A DNA stretch of 64,000 nucleotides from Flavobacterium saliperosum (GTDB lineage Bacteria > Bacteroidota > Bacteroidia > Flavobacteriales > Flavobacteriaceae), in the NCBI RefSeq assembly GCF_900100625.1, contig NZ_FMTY01000003.1, positions 255,424 through 319,423 of the forward strand. Reading direction: 5' to 3'. Below, piece after piece: positions 2,984-10,836 of this stretch; positions within the stretch are counted from its first letter, which is position 1, and every line of letters begins with the position of its first letter. The translations under genes and the position numbers were made by a program. Under the pieces are notes generated by a model. The model saw only the letters and a program-made list of their open reading frames with translations. It was not told where the DNA came from and ran no database searches.

Positions 2984-3865
2984 ATGCAACTACTGGACGG
3001 AAAAAAAGTATCGGAAGATATTAAAAATGAAATCGCTGCCGAAGTACAGCGCATGAAAGACAATGGCGAAAAAGTGCCTCATTTGGCGGCTATCATCGTA
3101 GGAAACGATGGGGCCAGTTTAACGTATGTGGGCAGTAAAGTAAAAGCCTGCGAGAGAGTTGGTTTTGAATCAACACTGATTAAAATGCCAAGTACCACTT
3201 CGGAAACCGAATTACTGAAAAAAATCAAGGAATTAAACACCAACGACGATATTGACGGATTTATCGTGCAGTTACCGCTTCCGGAACAAATTGATACGCA
3301 GGAAGTGCTGATGGCCATTTGTCCGAGCAAAGATGTAGATGGATTTCACCCGGAGAACTTTGGTAAAATGGCTTTGGACATGAGTACGTTTATCCCTGCA
3401 ACGCCATTCGGGATTTTGGAATTGTTAGAGCGTTACAACGTAGATACAGCCGGAAAACATACGGTGGTTATCGGAAGAAGTCATATTGTAGGCCGTCCGA
3501 TGAGTATTTTGATGGGACGTAAAGGCTTCCCCGGAAACTCAACCGTAACCTTAACGCACAGTCATACCAAAAACATTACCCAGATTACTTCTCAGGCCGA
3601 TATTATCATTACGGCATTAGGTGTACCCAATTATCTGAAAGCCGAAATGGTAAAGGACGATGTAGTGGTTATCGACGTGGGAATTACCCGTTTAGCCGAT
3701 GAAACCAACCCGAAAGGATATGTGATTACCGGTGATGTTGATTTTGAAAACGTAAGCAAAAAAGCCTCGTTCATTACGCCGGTTCCGGGAGGAGTAGGAC
3801 CTATGACCATTGCCATGTTGTTGAAAAACACCCTTTTGGCAAGAGAAAACAGAATGTGTAAATAA
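2984..3865 (+). CDS. folD: FolD methylenetetrahydrofolate dehydrogenase/cyclohydrolase
   Basis: This cytosolic enzyme interconverts 5,10-methylene-THF, methenyl-THF and 10-formyl-THF, supplying one-carbon units for purine and initiator-tRNA formylation. The 293-residue protein carries the family motifs: catalytic lysine in YVGSK (K52), GFIVQLPLP, KDVDGFHPEN, the NADP-site motif VVIGRSHIVGRPMS and the C-terminal PVPGGVGPMT. Length and order are typical. The leader holds a heptad repeat. The downstream acetyltransferase starts on the base after the stop codon, so the two are probably co-transcribed. Confidence 0.98.
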   Translation: MQLLDGKKVSEDIKNEIAAEVQRMKDNGEKVPHLAAIIVGNDGASLTYVGSKVKACERVGFESTLIKMPSTTSETELLKKIKELNTNDDIDGFIVQLPLPEQIDTQEVLMAICPSKDVDGFHPENFGKMALDMSTFIPATPFGILELLERYNVDTAGKHTVVIGRSHIVGRPMSILMGRKGFPGNSTVTLTHSHTKNITQITSQADIIITALGVPNYLKAEMVKDDVVVIDVGITRLADETNPKGYVITGDVDFENVSKKASFITPVPGGVGPMTIAMLLKNTLLARENRMCK

Positions 3866-4357
3866 ATGCGAATACTTCAAGCTGATAAAGACCAATTGTA
3901 CATCGTACGTGATTTAGCCTACACAATCTGGCCGGATGCTTATGGTGAAATCCTTTCGGAAGCGCAGTTGGATTATATGCTGGAAAATTTCTATGCCATT
4001 CCTGCCTTGGAAATGCAGATGGAAAACCATCACGTCTTTTTATTGGCCGAAGAAAACGGTGTCTTTTACGGATTTGCCTCTTATGAAGTAAATTGTAATG
4101 CTACCGGAAAAACCAAGCTGCATAAAATTTATGTTTTACCTGAAACGCAAGGAAAAGGATTAGGAAAACTTCTTTTGGCGGAAGTGGAAAAAGCAGCTTT
4201 ACAAGCGGGAAACCGCATCTTGTTTCTCAATGTAAACCGGTACAATATCGCTCAGGAATTTTACAAGCGTCTCGGTTTTGATATTGTCCATGAAGAGGAT
4301 ATCGAAATTGGAAATGGTTACCTCATGGAAGATTTCGTTATGGAAAAACCGTTATAA
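3866..4357 (+). CDS. GNAT family N-acetyltransferase
   Basis: The 163-residue protein has the GNAT fold with the acetyl-CoA-binding motif A (PETQGKGLGKLLL) around residues 90-103 and a typical end region (LNVNRYNIAQEFYKRLGF). Members transfer an acetyl group from acetyl-CoA to amines on proteins, antibiotics or small molecules; the acceptor cannot be predicted. It abuts folD with no gap and is followed by a strong terminator shared with the convergent hydroxylase gene. Confidence 0.9.
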   Translation: MRILQADKDQLYIVRDLAYTIWPDAYGEILSEAQLDYMLENFYAIPALEMQMENHHVFLLAEENGVFYGFASYEVNCNATGKTKLHKIYVLPETQGKGLGKLLLAEVEKAALQAGNRILFLNVNRYNIAQEFYKRLGFDIVHEEDIEIGNGYLMEDFVMEKPL

Positions 4358-4362
4358 AATAC

Positions 4363-4390
4363 AACCCGAGACGTAAGTCTTGGGTTTTTT
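4363..4390. terminator. Bidirectional terminator
   Basis: A 10-bp stem (4363-4372 with 4377-4386, one G-U) around a GTAA loop has T residues on the plus side and U-rich sequence on the minus side. It lies between convergent genes and overlaps the end of the minus-strand hydroxylase gene. Confidence 0.8.
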
Positions 4391-5099
4391 ATTTATAGGT
4401 CTTCATGATTTTATCCCAGACTAAAAAATAGAACCCAAAATTATGTTTCCCGTTTTTGTGATGCAGGTCATGATTCTCGGGAGTATTCTGAAAATTATTT
4501 TTTAAAAAAGGGGCTGTTATATTGTATCCTAAATGAATCCAGATATTGTAAAGGGTTAGAGTTGTTGAAAAAAACAACAGTGCAACAGGATGTACCGGCA
4601 GTAAAAAAACAATTACAGGTATGATACCTAAAGAGATTAATGCCTCTACAGGATGGAAGGAGAATGTTGTCCAAGGATTGGGATTGTGGGAACGATGATG
4701 GATTTTGTGAAAACGGTACAGGAACGGCAGTTTGTGCATTAACCAATGGGTCCAGTAAAAATAGGCGTCATGAAGAACAATCATAACAGCAATGCTGAAA
4801 ACAAGATACGGGTATCCATATTCTTCTATGGAAAGATAAATTCTTGTCCACCCGCTCTGATACCAAGAAATGAGCAGTAAAGTGGAAAAACTGTAAATGA
4901 GAAGGGTCATTCCGCCATAAATAAACTCTGTTTTTAGCTGGGCTGTTGAAGGATGTTTTTTGTTTAGTTTTAAATGAAAAAAAGATTTCTGTTTTTGTGT
5001 GTAAAAAATGTAATACAGTATGCCTGCAATAAAATAGTATCGGAAAGCAAATACTGCCATCGATGCTATAATGGATTGGTATTGATCAGTAAAAAACAT
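4389..5099 (-). CDS. Fatty acid hydroxylase/sterol desaturase family membrane enzyme
   Basis: The 236-residue membrane protein has three or more hydrophobic helices and the full histidine signature of integral-membrane di-iron oxygenases: H110 and HxxxH at 118-122, HKIHH at 131-135, FHP at 149, and HDLHH at 210-214. Such enzymes use O2 to hydroxylate or desaturate lipids, carotenoids or sterols. Its start codon overlaps the stop of the radical SAM gene by one base (TGATG), so translation is probably coupled. The substrate is unknown. A carotenoid or long-chain lipid is possible, but no isoprenoid synthesis genes are near. Confidence 0.85.
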   Translation of the reverse strand: MFFTDQYQSIIASMAVFAFRYYFIAGILYYIFYTQKQKSFFHLKLNKKHPSTAQLKTEFIYGGMTLLIYSFSTLLLISWYQSGWTRIYLSIEEYGYPYLVFSIAVMIVLHDAYFYWTHWLMHKLPFLYRFHKIHHRSHNPNPWTTFSFHPVEALISLGIIPVIVFLLPVHPVALLFFSTTLTLYNIWIHLGYNITAPFLKNNFQNTPENHDLHHKNGKHNFGFYFLVWDKIMKTYK

Positions 5100-6355
5100 C
5101 AGTCGGTACTTCCTTTAAATTGTTGGCATCCGTTTGTTTGTAATTCTTCCAAAACCGTTGGAAAATCGTCATTTAAAATGTTTCCGCTCTTTTTTTGGCA
5201 AAACGGACAAGCGTTCAAATCGCCATCGGAATCCACATATAAACTTCTGTTGCCTGCCCCGTAACACCCCATTCTTCTCTGGTAATAGCCATGATAGCTG
5301 ATCAGTGGAAAATCCTTATACTTCGGCGAATAATTCATTTCAAGATAAAATTTTTCCAACAGCTGAATTTGCTCTTCCGTTAAATCAACTTCTTTTTCTT
5401 TATAATGCCCTACCGCTCTCGGTTCCAAAATCTGAATGAAAGATACCCCCATTTTTTTGGCGAGCAATGCGTACTGCATCAGGTTGTTTTGAGTGACAAA
5501 ATCGCGCGTCACACAAATGGAGAGCGCCGTAGTCAAGTCGTTTTCAATGGCATTATGAACGGCTGTCTCCACCCAATAATAAGCGTCTTTAAATCCGCGA
5601 AACATATTGTGCTTTTCATGGAGATAATGGTCTAAACTTATCATTACACCTTTCACACCCGCTGCTTTGATTTTTTCTGCGTTTTCATTGTGTAGTTTGA
5701 ATCCGGAAGTCAGCACCCAGAAATCGGTTCCTTTTTGTGCTTTACGGACGATATCCGCAATCAAATTCACTTTAAGTAAAGGTTCGCCACCGGAAAGATG
5801 AATCTGGCTGATGCCTTTTTCCTGAAGCCGCGCAATCGTCTGATGAATTTTGTCTTCCGATTGTGTTTCTTTCTGGTTGAGGTTATCCCATTCGTAACAA
5901 TGCTCGCATTGCAGGGAACATTTTTTAGTGATGGCTACATAGGCACTTGTAAAGCGATTGGTTTTTCCTTTTATCGGAACGATTCGGTTCATTTCCGAGG
6001 CGATAAAACTTTTGAACGATGCGCTATTCCGGCTCCATCCCGGGGTGTAAAGACTCCAGTAATAGGTTTTGCCCACATTGGCGAGTTTATAGAGTCGGTG
6101 TTCCCCGATGTTTTTTCGTCTTTTTTTATCCAATGCCAAGGGAACCGCTAACCAGTGCCAGGGGTTAGAATAGTTTTTTACTGCGATTTTTATAATAGTG
6201 AACCGAAAAAGCAGTTCAATCCATTCTTTGCGGAATCCGGTTACCAAATGTTGTTTATTGTCCGAACGCGTTTGTTGCGCCAATTCGGTTTTGGAATCAG
6301 CATCCTTCTGAAAAAGATGCATCGGATTTACAAAGTAATTTACCTGATTATTCAT
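5099..6355 (-). CDS. Radical SAM enzyme with auxiliary-cluster cysteines
   Basis: The 418-residue protein has the radical SAM signature CSLQCEHC (C146, C150, C153), which holds the 4Fe-4S cluster that cleaves S-adenosylmethionine, and SGGEPL at 188-193. The C-terminus has further cysteines at 364, 383, 386 and 410 within a YVDSDGDLNACPFC setting, like the twitch/SPASM domains that bind an extra cluster. An unusual ~130-residue basic N-terminal extension precedes the barrel. SPASM-type enzymes often modify peptides, but no precursor peptide is seen nearby. The gene overlaps its upstream neighbour by 8 nt and its downstream one by 1 nt. The substrate is unknown. Confidence 0.9.
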   Translation of the reverse strand: MNNQVNYFVNPMHLFQKDADSKTELAQQTRSDNKQHLVTGFRKEWIELLFRFTIIKIAVKNYSNPWHWLAVPLALDKKRRKNIGEHRLYKLANVGKTYYWSLYTPGWSRNSASFKSFIASEMNRIVPIKGKTNRFTSAYVAITKKCSLQCEHCYEWDNLNQKETQSEDKIHQTIARLQEKGISQIHLSGGEPLLKVNLIADIVRKAQKGTDFWVLTSGFKLHNENAEKIKAAGVKGVMISLDHYLHEKHNMFRGFKDAYYWVETAVHNAIENDLTTALSICVTRDFVTQNNLMQYALLAKKMGVSFIQILEPRAVGHYKEKEVDLTEEQIQLLEKFYLEMNYSPKYKDFPLISYHGYYQRRMGCYGAGNRSLYVDSDGDLNACPFCQKKSGNILNDDFPTVLEELQTNGCQQFKGSTD

Positions 6356-8033
6356 GATTGAAAACGATTTCGTTTAAATTTTTGGAAGTTGTTATTCTCA
6401 GGAATTCTTCTTCGGAATAGTCAGATAACCTGCCGGGATTACGGAATGTTTTCAGTTTTGAAAAATCCGGATTGCCAGTATAATTTCGGATGTATTCGTA
6501 ATAGCCTTTGTTTTTAAGATAGACAGTCTGTTTCATCCCTTTTTGGGTAGTAGGAGCGTTGTATCGGACGGTAACGGCATTGTCGGGATTGGGCTGAACC
6601 AGATACTTTTTGTCTTCAGAGGTGAGCAGATTGGTTACCTCTTTTCCGTTTTCATCGATGGCAGAATTAGGTTTGATAACGGAAACGTTTAATTTCGGGT
6701 TGTCCGTCTGGTCGAGCGCGACATAATCGACTTCCCAAAACATAAATCCAGTTTCGAGTTTTATTTCGATGGTTTCCGAATCCGTTGCGATGTTGTTTAT
6801 CGGTACAACAAGATCACGAAAAGCCATTGGTCCGGTAGGGTTTATTTTTTCAACCAGTTTCCATTTTTCGTTGGATTTCACATAAACAGAAAGGGGAATG
6901 TGTTGCTCATCCCGCCATTTTATGACTTTATCAGAGGTCATTTTTCGCTGCTGTTTTTGAAACGTATTATAGTATGAACCAAACTGTTCGTTGAATTTAC
7001 CGTACAGATAATCGAACCAAAGTGAATTTTTGGCTCTTAAAACCAATTTTTTTTGGGTGGAACCGGTGTTTTTAAAGTTGAAAACCATTTCATTCGATTT
7101 TGATTCGGGTAGTTTTTTATCGAACAAATAAGAGTGGTCGTCTTTTAGCAGTGCAGGTTTTAGGTCGGATGGTGTATTGTTACTGCTAACCTCTTGTGGG
7201 GTAACAGGATTGGAAATGCATTGAATCGCACCTTTCTGATCCAATAACACGGCTGAATTTTCAGGATGTTCAATGGTGATTAATTCCGCAAGGTCGGTGT
7301 ATTGTACTTCCAATAATTCATTGGTGATTTTTAAAACATATTCGCCGTTATCCGGATTGAATTCCGGAAGCAGAAGATAATCGGTTCGTTCCAGCGATGG
7401 AAGGATGGCGCCCGGATACAGTTCTCCGGTAAAAACATAGGAATCTCCATTTTTTATATAGACATAGGGGCAAGAGCTTTTGAGGAGCAAAATTAGTATG
7501 AATACGAGTGCTAATGAAGCAAGTGTAATTCCTGTCGCTGATAAGGCAATTCTTCCGTGATTCAATTCGTATACTTCCACTTTTGAGATGTCGGAAAACG
7601 GAATTGTAATGACATCCGGAGTCACATCGATTTTTTTGTCGGCATAAAAATGAATTTCATAATGCTTTTTTGATTTGCTTCTGTCGAACCGTGCGGATGT
7701 TTTTCCCTTTTTCAAAGGATAGAGTAAATGACTGTTGTCAATTCCATTTGGAACTGCCGTGATTTCTTTTTTCACATCATCCAACACTATCTTGTCGAGA
7801 TTCACCTCTCCTCCTTCAAAATGCAGAATTACATATTTCTTAGGTTTTTCCGATGTATACTTGTATGCAGATGAAAAGTTGTCTTCTTTTGCAGGTAAAG
7901 ATCTGACTTTATAATAGGAACAACCGATGGTTAAATTTAAAAAGGCAGCTACAATGAAATAAGTAAAAGGTTTTAGCTTTTTTCTCAGCAGTTGTAAAGC
8001 GGAAGGGGACGTTAATCTTTGTTCTCTTTTCAT
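6348..8033 (-). CDS. Uncharacterised large lipoprotein/membrane protein
   Basis: I do not recognise a named family with certainty. The 561-residue protein has a basic N-region and a hydrophobic stretch ending in a lipobox-like LTIGC (C38), then a beta-rich region, one strong membrane helix (about 162-185), and a large beta-rich C-terminal part starting SCPYVYIKNGDSYVFTGELY. Two hydrophobic segments suggest either a lipid anchor plus a helix or a two-pass protein. It is the first gene of the operon with the radical SAM enzyme and the hydroxylase. A role in holding or presenting their lipid or polymer substrate is a guess. Confidence 0.7.
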   Translation of the reverse strand: MKREQRLTSPSALQLLRKKLKPFTYFIVAAFLNLTIGCSYYKVRSLPAKEDNFSSAYKYTSEKPKKYVILHFEGGEVNLDKIVLDDVKKEITAVPNGIDNSHLLYPLKKGKTSARFDRSKSKKHYEIHFYADKKIDVTPDVITIPFSDISKVEVYELNHGRIALSATGITLASLALVFILILLLKSSCPYVYIKNGDSYVFTGELYPGAILPSLERTDYLLLPEFNPDNGEYVLKITNELLEVQYTDLAELITIEHPENSAVLLDQKGAIQCISNPVTPQEVSSNNTPSDLKPALLKDDHSYLFDKKLPESKSNEMVFNFKNTGSTQKKLVLRAKNSLWFDYLYGKFNEQFGSYYNTFQKQQRKMTSDKVIKWRDEQHIPLSVYVKSNEKWKLVEKINPTGPMAFRDLVVPINNIATDSETIEIKLETGFMFWEVDYVALDQTDNPKLNVSVIKPNSAIDENGKEVTNLLTSEDKKYLVQPNPDNAVTVRYNAPTTQKGMKQTVYLKNKGYYEYIRNYTGNPDFSKLKTFRNPGRLSDYSEEEFLRITTSKNLNEIVFNHE

Positions 8034-8208: not shown

Positions 8209-8237
8209 AAACCCCAAGAGCAAATCCCGGGGTTGTA
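8209..8237 (-). terminator. Intrinsic terminator of the pseudouridine synthase gene
   Basis: Read on the minus strand, AACCCC pairs with GGGGTT around a 13-nt loop and is followed by TATTTTT. It lies about 15 nt after the end of the rluF-type gene. Confidence 0.7.
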
Positions 8238-8252
8238 TTGAAAAGAATTAAA

Positions 8253-9080
8253 TTAGGTATCGTTTCTGGAATTACGACGATTATCATTCCTTGGCGGCAA
8301 CGGTTTTCTGTGCTCCCGCTGAATGGGTCTTTTTGTTTCCACTTTTGGTAAACTCGCTTCTTCCGTTTTACTGGACGGTTCGATAAGCTGGTTGAGTTCC
8401 TGAATTTCGGCATCGGTTAACTCGCGGTAACGACCCACCGGAACATCTAAGGATATATTAATGATTCGGGTACGCTTTAAAGCCGTTACTTCATATCCTA
8501 AATACTCACACATACGACGGATTTGTCGGTTCAAACCTTGTGTAAGGACAATCCGGAACACAAACTTACTGATTTGTTCCACCTTGCATTTTTTGGTAAC
8601 GGTATCCAGAATCGGCACACCATTTCCCATGCGTTGGATAAAACGGTCTACTATGGGTTTGTTAACGGTTACCACATATTCTTTTTCGTGATTGTTACGC
8701 GCACGAAGAATCTTGTTCACGATGTCACCGTCATCGGTCATGAAAATCAAACCTTCACTGGCTTTGTCCAATCGTCCGATAGGGAAAATACGCTTAGGGT
8801 AATTGATGTAATCCACAATGTTGTTTTTCACACTCTGATTAGTTGTACATTCAATTCCTACCGGCTTGTTGAATGCCAGATAAATGGGTTTGGAAGTTTT
8901 TTCACGAATCAGTTTTCCATCCACGCGGATTTCGTCGTCCAACGAGACTTTGGTGCCCATTTCGGGAACGACGCCATTGATGGTTATGCGGCCTTCTTCC
9001 AACAGTCTGTCTGCTTCACGACGGGAGCAATAGCCTGTTTCGGAAAGGAATTTGTTAATACGGGTTTTGTTTTCTTCCAT
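8253..9080 (-). CDS. 23S rRNA pseudouridine synthase, RluB/RluF family
   Basis: The enzyme isomerises a uridine of 23S rRNA to pseudouridine. The protein (275 residues from the chosen start) has an N-terminal S4 RNA-binding domain ([20 protein letters not shown]), then the RsuA/RluB-type catalytic domain with the active-site motif [19 protein letters not shown], whose aspartate attacks the base, and [13 protein letters not shown] near the end. A basic low-complexity tail follows. The start at 9080 (MEENK) is preferred over one six codons upstream because the S4 domain begins right after it. The features lean towards RluF, but the target uridine cannot be assigned. Confidence 0.92.
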
Positions 9081-9146
9081 GATGCAAAAATAGCACATAT
9101 TTAAATAATAGACTGCTCCTCCTTAATAATGCGCTAACTTTTTTTA

Positions 9147-9174: not shown

Positions 9175-10836
9175 TTGAAAAAAATACTGGTACTATTACT
9201 TTTTTCTACTGTTTCTCTTTTTGCCCAAAGCAGAAAAGGGGAGTTTCAGTTGGCACCCAACACCGGACAACACGAATTGTATGTGTCTTTTTTTGATGTC
9301 CTTGTTTTTCAGGATGATAATTATGAACAGGTCCTTTCCCAAAAGGATGAAATCAAAGAACTGATTGCTCAATACGCCATTCGTTTTCATAAAGGCATTC
9401 AAATTTCCGATGAGAAAACGGAGGCTTTTTTTGAAGCAGCCAAGCAGAACGGACACGACGGAAAATCGGTTCTGAAACTTAAAAATATCGTCCGATTTGA
9501 AATCGAGAATCCTACCAATGAGCGTTTGTTGGCTTTAGCCACACAATTGGAAAAACTGGATGTTGTAGAATATTGCAGTCTGATGCCCCTAGAGCCCATT
9601 GCGCCTCCGGGTGACATTGCGCCCGCCACACCCAATTATGAAAACAACCAAACGTATTTGGATGCCAATCCGGGTGTGAACATGCGTTATGCCTGGGGAT
9701 TGGGCTTGACAGGAACGGGAATCCGAATTCGGGATGTGGAATACGGATTTAATAAAAATCACGAAGAATTAGTAGATCGCAATGCCTTTATTGCTCCTGG
9801 GATGACGATTTCAACCAGTGCAACCCCATCTTATACGGAACACGGCACATCGGTTTTTGGAATTATGTATGCCGATAAAGGTACTTATGGCGTATCAGGG
9901 ATGGCATATGACGCTGCGGAGATGGTACTGTTTCCGGAATGGCAGCAGACCGGATACAGCCGGGTGAATGCCGTAACACAGGCAATTGCGAATTCGGTTG
10001 CCGGGGATGTCATTGTGTATGAAATGCAGGCTTACGGTCAGGGAGGTAATTTCGTTCCGGCCGAATTTGATAATCCGGTTTGGGATTTGACCAAGGCTGC
10101 CACAGATGCCGGAATTGTTATTGTGGAAGCGGCTGCCAATGGAAATCAGAACCTGGATTCGGCCTATTACGCTTCTTATATGGCGAGAGGAAATTCGGGA
10201 GCAATAATTGTGGGCGGTGGAATACCCGATATTTCACATAACCGTATTTCTTACAGCACTTATGGTTCGCGTGTGGATGTACAGGGTTGGGCAAACAATG
10301 TTCGTGCCTGCGGAACCGGCGATTTTATCATGATTGGTGGTGATTTTAATCAGAGTTATACCAATTTCTCGGGGACGAGTTCGGCAACACCTATCGTAGC
10401 ATCGTGTGTGGTGGTTTTACAGTCGTATTACTACGGTTTGACCGGATTGTATCTTACCGGAGCACAAATGCGTCAACTGTTGCAGCAAACCGGAATTCCG
10501 CAAGGAACAAGTGTCGCCGGAAATATTGGACCGTTGCCCGATATGCAGGCGGCTATTTTGCAAATCAACCAGAATTTGAGTGTTGCTGACAATGAAACCA
10601 TCCGCTTTACGGTATTTCCTAATCCGGTAACCGATCGACTGAATGTGCTTATTCCTCAGTTAAAAGATACTGTTGCGCGACTGGAAATTTATACGGCATT
10701 AGGACAAAAAACGGCGGAGTACACACTACAGGCGGGTACCAATGAAATTGCTTTCGGAAACTTACCGCAAGGCATTTATTTTGTAAAACTTACCGACGGG
10801 AAAAGAACCCAGGTCAAGAAAATCGTGAAACGATAG
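9175..10836 (+). CDS. Secreted subtilisin-like (S8) protease with T9SS sorting domain
   Basis: The 553-residue protein is an exported serine endopeptidase. A signal peptide (MKKILVLLLFSTVSLFAQS) is followed by a propeptide-like region to about residue 140, then the S8 domain with D187, H223 (EHGTSVFGI) and S402 (SGTSSATP) as the triad and N322 as a likely oxyanion residue. The end (from about residue 475, FPNPVTDRLN to a basic last strand) is a type A T9SS C-terminal sorting domain for outer-membrane passage and surface attachment or release. The start codon is TTG: an in-frame stop lies just upstream and the signal peptide begins there. It converges with the hydrolase gene, 2 nt apart. Confidence 0.93.
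   Translation: MKKILVLLLFSTVSLFAQSRKGEFQLAPNTGQHELYVSFFDVLVFQDDNYEQVLSQKDEIKELIAQYAIRFHKGIQISDEKTEAFFEAAKQNGHDGKSVLKLKNIVRFEIENPTNERLLALATQLEKLDVVEYCSLMPLEPIAPPGDIAPATPNYENNQTYLDANPGVNMRYAWGLGLTGTGIRIRDVEYGFNKNHEELVDRNAFIAPGMTISTSATPSYTEHGTSVFGIMYADKGTYGVSGMAYDAAEMVLFPEWQQTGYSRVNAVTQAIANSVAGDVIVYEMQAYGQGGNFVPAEFDNPVWDLTKAATDAGIVIVEAAANGNQNLDSAYYASYMARGNSGAIIVGGGIPDISHNRISYSTYGSRVDVQGWANNVRACGTGDFIMIGGDFNQSYTNFSGTSSATPIVASCVVVLQSYYYGLTGLYLTGAQMRQLLQQTGIPQGTSVAGNIGPLPDMQAAILQINQNLSVADNETIRFTVFPNPVTDRLNVLIPQLKDTVARLEIYTALGQKTAEYTLQAGTNEIAFGNLPQGIYFVKLTDGKRTQVKKIVKR

Follow-up and report, generated by a model that had tools for sequence, protein, structure and literature searches.

A lipoprotein and a Twitch-type radical SAM enzyme encoded as a nearly inseparable pair across Bacteroidota, with a possible role in tailoring an envelope lipid

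A stretch of 64,000 nucleotides from Flavobacterium saliperosum, corresponding to positions 255424-319423 of contig NZ_FMTY01000003.1 in a genome of 2.89 Mb and referred to here as the window, encodes three overlapping genes. Their products are a membrane lipoprotein (L), a radical S-adenosylmethionine (SAM) enzyme (R) and a membrane di-iron enzyme of the fatty acid hydroxylase superfamily (H). In the current analysis L and R have been identified as a core that is nearly inseparable across Bacteroidota, while the other partners vary. We tentatively propose, with somewhat less than even confidence, that this core forms an accessory module for the tailoring of an envelope lipid, one that has at times been lost. 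The parts are of known kinds, namely a Twitch radical SAM enzyme, a fatty acid hydroxylase and a lipoprotein, and the R-L pair is covered by no curated model among those shown. The interest of the pair lies in the near-fixed association of an enzyme with a lipoprotein over much of the phylum, L having no family model of its own.

The pairing has been followed in 80 named loci, F. orientale among them, which are the best 80 of 94 confirmed loci found by two sequence patterns of R; more distant R proteins, such as that of locus L177, lie outside this sample. L is situated directly upstream of R at 76 of these loci. As for the remaining four, L adjoins R in the opposite direction in L098 and lies upstream with four genes between in L126, and R begins right at the contig edge (base 2-3) in L079 and L080. 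A strong match to R (E-value below 1e-80) occurs in 14 of 249 family genomes. A strong match to L is found in exactly these 14, and the two genes are adjacent in every one; in genome G061 R is split by a stop. Of 395 genomes of the class, 14 encode R at an E-value of 1e-45 or less, and L stands beside R in all 14. The arrangement varies in this sample, being divergent in L197 and in the order R-L in L199 and L201, with an 80-residue frame on the other strand between the two genes in L195. The gene overlaps in the window, reported in the original prediction, are borne out: 8 nucleotides for L and R (6348-6355) and 1 nucleotide for R and H (5099), all on the minus strand. Across the 76 loci the gap between L and R is -8 nucleotides in 9, -4 in 5 and zero or less in 33, gaps and gene chains being based on mechanically called open reading frames with the longest start chosen.

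The three genes had been taken as one unit that would be refuted by rare co-occurrence of the homologues. Such rarity is not seen for L and R, and is seen by half for H. The unit therefore stands for the L-R pair but not for a fixed trio. A fixed three-gene pathway has been rejected because H is encoded at only 22 of the 80 loci and tracks the phylogeny of R. Once near copies and truncated rows had been taken out, 68 candidates each of R and L were left, and the alignment of R (A5) comprises these 68 and the R of the window, 69 rows in all. On the tree of these rows, in which the closest relatives of the window R are Flavobacterium sequences, the presence of H requires 4 changes against a mean of 17.8 in shuffles. 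H adjoins R in 9 of the 14 positive family genomes. Beyond the Flavobacteriaceae-type branch it is seen only in L087 and L195, where the order is L-R-KAS III-H, and in L176, where it faces the pair. H is thus an accessory gene, occurring mostly in the Flavobacteriaceae branch.

The Pfam family PF04116 (FA_hydroxylase) has been assigned to H with 113.5 bits (cut-off 31). The full set of eight histidines claimed earlier is present as H118, H122, H131, H134, H135, H210, H213 and H214, all invariant in 9 of 9 sequences. H thereby resembles other eight-histidine di-iron membrane enzymes of this superfamily, of which OlsE (NF052566) is the nearest NCBIfam model. It differs from OlsE, which has been rejected as an assignment (35.1 bits against a cut-off of 475), and also in having a radical SAM enzyme as its gene partner.

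Two occurrences of the pair are of note. A contig of Lutibacter oceani carries two L-R pairs (L103 and L110) about 13 kb apart, an apparent duplication. In L177 (8626-11706) a distant R, matching at 228 bits and exceeding the Pfam SPASM cut-off with 22.9 bits, neighbours an L-type protein, with R first (R-L), and the pairing may therefore be older than the sampled clade.

R matches the Radical_SAM family of Pfam at 70.2 bits. Since this match starts at residue 142, the N-terminal extension of about 130 residues that had been proposed for R is real. The SAM-cluster motif CxxxCxxC is formed by C146, C150 and C153, invariant in all 69 sequences. Equally invariant (69 of 69) are the four proposed auxiliary cysteines, C364, C383, C386 and C410. 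The first two belong to the motif C364-X13-G378-X4-C383, in which G378 is conserved in 13 of 13 sequences, and C386 and C410 follow it. The motif fits the pattern CX9-15GX4C that PMC6231123 gives for Twitch/SPASM domains. On its sequence R is a Twitch-type radical SAM enzyme, for which an auxiliary Fe-S cluster is predicted from the cysteines. A full SPASM enzyme has been rejected, as R scores 15.5 bits against the Pfam SPASM cut-off of 21.5 and has only four invariant C-terminal cysteines rather than the seven-cysteine motif.

R falls below the cut-off of every NCBIfam model among the best 25 of the 93 that match it. The top matches among these are GeoRSP and MoaA models. Membership has been rejected for GeoRSP (TIGR04303, 81.5 bits against 400) and, on the curated cut-offs, for MoaA and PqqE. 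It has also been rejected for TIGR04133 (rSAM_w_lipo), a model that to judge by its name concerns a radical SAM enzyme associated with a lipoprotein: R does match it at 67.6 bits but is far under its cut-off of 425, and L has no NCBIfam match at an E-value of 1 or less.

The predicted model of R (pLDDT 91.8) has as its nearest solved fold SkfB (Z 25.8, root mean square deviation 3.0, 289 residues aligned, 19% identity), over residues 110-418. It is followed by SuiB (22.6), BlsE, viperins (Z about 22) and anSME (20.8). The first 108 residues of R lie outside all these matches, and the predicted order of elements in the extension is E-H-H-E-E-H. Like the Twitch/SPASM enzymes SkfB, SuiB, anSME, PqqE and MoaA, R has a radical SAM barrel and a Twitch domain with CX13GX4C and two further invariant cysteines. 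Unlike these systems it reaches no cut-off among the best 25 of 93 matching NCBIfam models and has a near-obligate partner, a lipoprotein of 561 residues; it is moreover distant from SkfB over the aligned part, and its extension is not aligned to the RRE of SkfB.

L, originally described as being of unknown family, reaches no Pfam or NCBIfam cut-off. Lipoboxes have Leu, Val or Ile at -3 and a small residue at -1, followed by Cys. Cys38 of L is lipobox-like and is found in all 69 R-linked L proteins, with Gly at -1 and, in the window, Thr at -3, a position that varies among the relatives. The model of L (pLDDT 87.0) comprises an export-type helix (11-35), a beta domain (41-157), a hydrophobic helix (159-183) and a C-terminal beta domain from residue 185 that carries the invariant Cys188-Pro189. 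The second helix, with a 19-residue mean hydropathy of 2.63, was absent from the earlier description. L has been aligned in 68 rows (A4), with L098, L100, L115 and L131 left out, and in 65 rows (A6), three further rows of A4 being left out for the structure model. Cys188, Pro189, Asn238, Glu242, Asp298 and Gly510 are common to 79 L-type proteins, which are the 69 R-linked proteins and ten paralogous lipoproteins treated as R-less. No convincing whole match to L was found with Foldseek (best E-value 1.9e-05, TM 0.08). In another structure comparison, jelly-roll domains, CBM-like domains and others matched with middling Z scores (best 11.8), mainly over residues of about 259-448, so that no function has been drawn from the fold.

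Domains of the L type also occur apart from R. In phylum genomes the Ser-Cys-Pro beta domain is found in part (about model positions 185-310) behind UnbV_ASPIC in long FG-GAP-repeat proteins (L158, L159, L161 and similar ones), without a Pfam match of its own there. The L-type lipoproteins of L151-L157 and L167 adjoin, in place of R, small genes that are lipoprotein-like or barrel-like as judged by eye, which makes a second pairing of this family.

The genes around the pair point to lipids in a number of lineages. Between L and R of L126 are encoded a desaturase, an alpha-oxoamine synthase (by similarity to solved structures), a protein of 398 residues and a sulfotransferase. L108 has, before L, an epimerase, an MBL protein, an F390-synthetase-related protein (TIGR02304, 470.7 bits, cut-off 251.9), KAS III and a sulfotransferase. 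R is followed by a sulfotransferase in L080, by KAS III and then H in L087 and L195, by a fatty acid desaturase in L196 and by a CDP-alcohol transferase in L139; a gene of the last kind lies upstream on the same strand in L200. In L176 a gene of 195 residues without family match follows R, facing a desaturase and the H homologue on the other strand. In L085 (11183-17800) and L089 (11058-18049) R is followed by a protein of 1471-1510 residues, then DUF3419, then a gene of 370 residues. The large protein has AMP-ligase, class-III aminotransferase and dehydrogenase-like parts (by Pfam for L085), and these genes possibly form an unusual aminolipid cluster. The earlier statement that no polyketide gene is near holds for the first 13 kb of the window as read, but KAS III and AMP-ligase genes adjoin the pair in some relatives.

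Chained neighbours have been compared with a background from the same loci. Of 105 neighbours 95 were scanned, 10 being dropped for length or unknown residues; the background consists of 95 length-matched genes from elsewhere in the loci, drawn from 731 eligible genes of 863. Among the best 25 of 80 neighbour families are Sulfotransfer_3 and Lipocalin_4 (three times each), two outer-membrane beta-barrel models (five times each) and KAS III, DUF3419, AMP-binding and class-III aminotransferase (twice each). None of these recurring families is among the best 25 of the 123 background families, where none occurs more than twice; either set may conceal less frequent families, among them lipid-type ones. 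Neighbours were selected by position, but the sulfotransferases and KAS III among them were already known before the control was run.

We weigh these neighbours as follows. Of the proposal that L and R tailor an envelope lipid, the gene pairing, the intact active-site residues and the lineage-specific partners are observed, as are the folds in the form of predicted models. We infer a lipid as the substrate, and the reaction and the role of L would be of the following kind. R may act directly on a lipid or a lipid-linked precursor, making a radical-based change in the cytoplasm or at the inner membrane face, and the membrane-held L would bind, present or pass on the product. In Flavobacteriaceae H would hydroxylate the same lipid using O2, and comparable places may be filled in some other lineages by desaturases, sulfotransferases, KAS III or CDP-alcohol enzymes. 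Of the lipid-modification route put forward in the original prediction, the lipid theme is retained, as enzymes of lipid type are found repeatedly next to the pair in certain other lineages, but the fixed trio is not. If true, this would make an unknown envelope lipid accessible to genetics.

Several observations weigh against this proposal. A lipid-type gene has been identified in the same-strand chain of only 6 of the 58 loci that lack H (L080, L085, L089, L108, L126 and L139); of these 58 loci, 22 hold L and R alone and 36 have other chained frames. Different loci have different lipid-type enzymes, none of which recurs as often as the outer-membrane barrels, the commonest partner after H. 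The nearest solved relatives of R are, judged by their names, mostly enzymes of peptides, proteins or nucleotides, and the amphipathic moment of its N-terminal helices is small (0.04-0.10). Serine palmitoyltransferase exceeds the curated cut-off in none of 40 genomes, with weaker relatives in all 40. The classical sphingolipid route, suggested by the operon of L126, is therefore unsupported in this family and has been rejected, the L126 enzyme itself scoring 306 bits against 640. The desaturase near the pair in genome G013 has a close homologue (51%) in just one more of the 14 positive genomes. A desaturase shared by the pathway has been rejected likewise, as some homologue exists in 39 of the 40 genomes and close ones in two positives only. 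The label 'GNAT-like', read by eye for three neighbour genes, has no family match in its support. Considering the neighbours and the control together with this counter-evidence, lipid is the likeliest theme of the neighbourhood. The pair and its neighbours suggest a route, undescribed so far, that modifies an envelope lipid or the lipoprotein itself; in agreement with the earlier expectation of a new unit, no description of the L-R pair was found in the titles and abstract starts of papers listed by searches of the open PubMed Central library.

In the strongest alternative, possible though somewhat unlikely, R acts as a maturase that modifies L ahead of its export, and mature L works outside the cytoplasm, on lipid or at the surface. 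The most plausible site is a hairpin of about 40 residues (about 95-135) that is particular to the R-linked L set. Such a modification would be comparable to that of sulfatases by anaerobic sulfatase-maturating enzymes. This would best explain why L and R are nearly inseparable while every other partner varies, and the peptide and protein modifiers SkfB, SuiB and anSME are among the closest solved folds of R. The hairpin bears His128, in a motif of the LNEVHFY type, in 69 of 69 R-linked L proteins; of the ten paralogues treated as R-less, 8 have a gap there and 2 have Asp or Ser. The R-less label rests on short stretches (15-19 kb for L149, L151 and L152), and L149 and L150 have been counted so despite an R-like gene beside L150. 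L150 is one of the two paralogues without the gap, and with a distant R-like gene (228 bits) adjoining and yet no His128 it makes the contrast between R-linked and R-less proteins weaker. Since the hairpin is situated beyond the export helix, its modification by an enzyme of the cytoplasm would need to precede export. No RRE-like unit has so far been recognised in the R extension, the SkfB alignment beginning only at residue 110, and the lipid-type neighbours are not explained by the maturase alone. The hairpin may be a site modified by R or a binding site for the R product, or may bind a ligand or metal instead. Were R to modify L, a large lipoprotein would join the clients of radical maturases.

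The lipid-tailoring and maturase readings may both hold in part. In the combined form, which we regard as unlikely, R would be a new kind of protein modifier that alters the His128 hairpin before export, and the modified, membrane-held L would do the work in an envelope-lipid system in which one lineage has exchanged its tailoring enzymes for others than the next. Few radical SAM enzymes are known to alter lipids or large exported proteins. Modification at His128, if true, would mean a radical SAM maturase that is found phylum-wide and has a large lipoprotein as client, not a small peptide.

It is improbable that L serves as a membrane scaffold that recruits R to the membrane by binding it through the C-terminal domain, with H as an independent lipid enzyme. 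The tight pairing agrees with such docking, as does the strongly hydrophobic helix 159-183: as it follows an export-type helix, residues 185-561 would be cytoplasmic. However, the same C-terminal domain stands behind UnbV_ASPIC in the long FG-GAP proteins, a class that is usually exported, and in lipoproteins that lack R in the stretch read.

That R is a viperin-like enzyme making an antiviral nucleotide, with L as a defence partner, is very improbable: R scores 56 bits with the PADLOC pVip models and viperins and viperin-like enzymes are among its structural matches, but the NCBIfam viperin model (NF038283, 48.7 bits against a cut-off of 180) is rejected, R has auxiliary-cluster cysteines, which viperins to our knowledge are without, and the identified neighbours are lipid-type, outer-membrane or housekeeping genes.

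The envelope-lipid module of our proposal, as an accessory trait, has left traces of both retention and loss. Its site in two other Flavobacterium loci, L064 and L065, is the same as in the window: the upstream same-strand gene is 84.8-86% identical to that at 8253-9098 of the window (pseudouridine-synthase-like), and two convergent genes past H are 90-91% identical to those at 1526-2866 and 2984-3865. Genome G005 retains separate fragments of R and of H, and G098 a broken fragment of L. The 17 other genomes of the genus that were listed for L have no match to it, and the 5 listed for R have none to R. The shared site, the losses and the genus genomes without match together indicate an accessory trait with an old site in the genus. 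Among the 14 positive family genomes the surroundings of the pair are mostly dissimilar.

In the window the L-R-H unit is flanked by two terminator-like stems, one per end (Table 1), and such sites are not enriched in the region (5 against 4.2 in shuffles).

Table 1. Positions of the L-R-H genes and the flanking stems in the window
Feature	Position	Strand	Basis
L, membrane lipoprotein, 561 residues	6348-8033	minus	open reading frame
R, radical SAM enzyme with Twitch-type auxiliary-cluster domain, 418 residues	5099-6355	minus	open reading frame
H, membrane di-iron enzyme, fatty acid hydroxylase superfamily, 236 residues	4389-5099	minus	open reading frame
Terminator-like stem, 10 pairs, separating L from the upstream minus-strand gene	8210-8234	minus	pattern only
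Terminator-like stem, 10 pairs, between H end and convergent gene 3866-4357	4363-4386	plus	pattern only

A subtilase with a secretion C-terminal sorting domain (by Pfam) is encoded near the cassette at 9175-10836 of the window, and homologues of it (53-55%) are also found near the cassette in L064 and L065.

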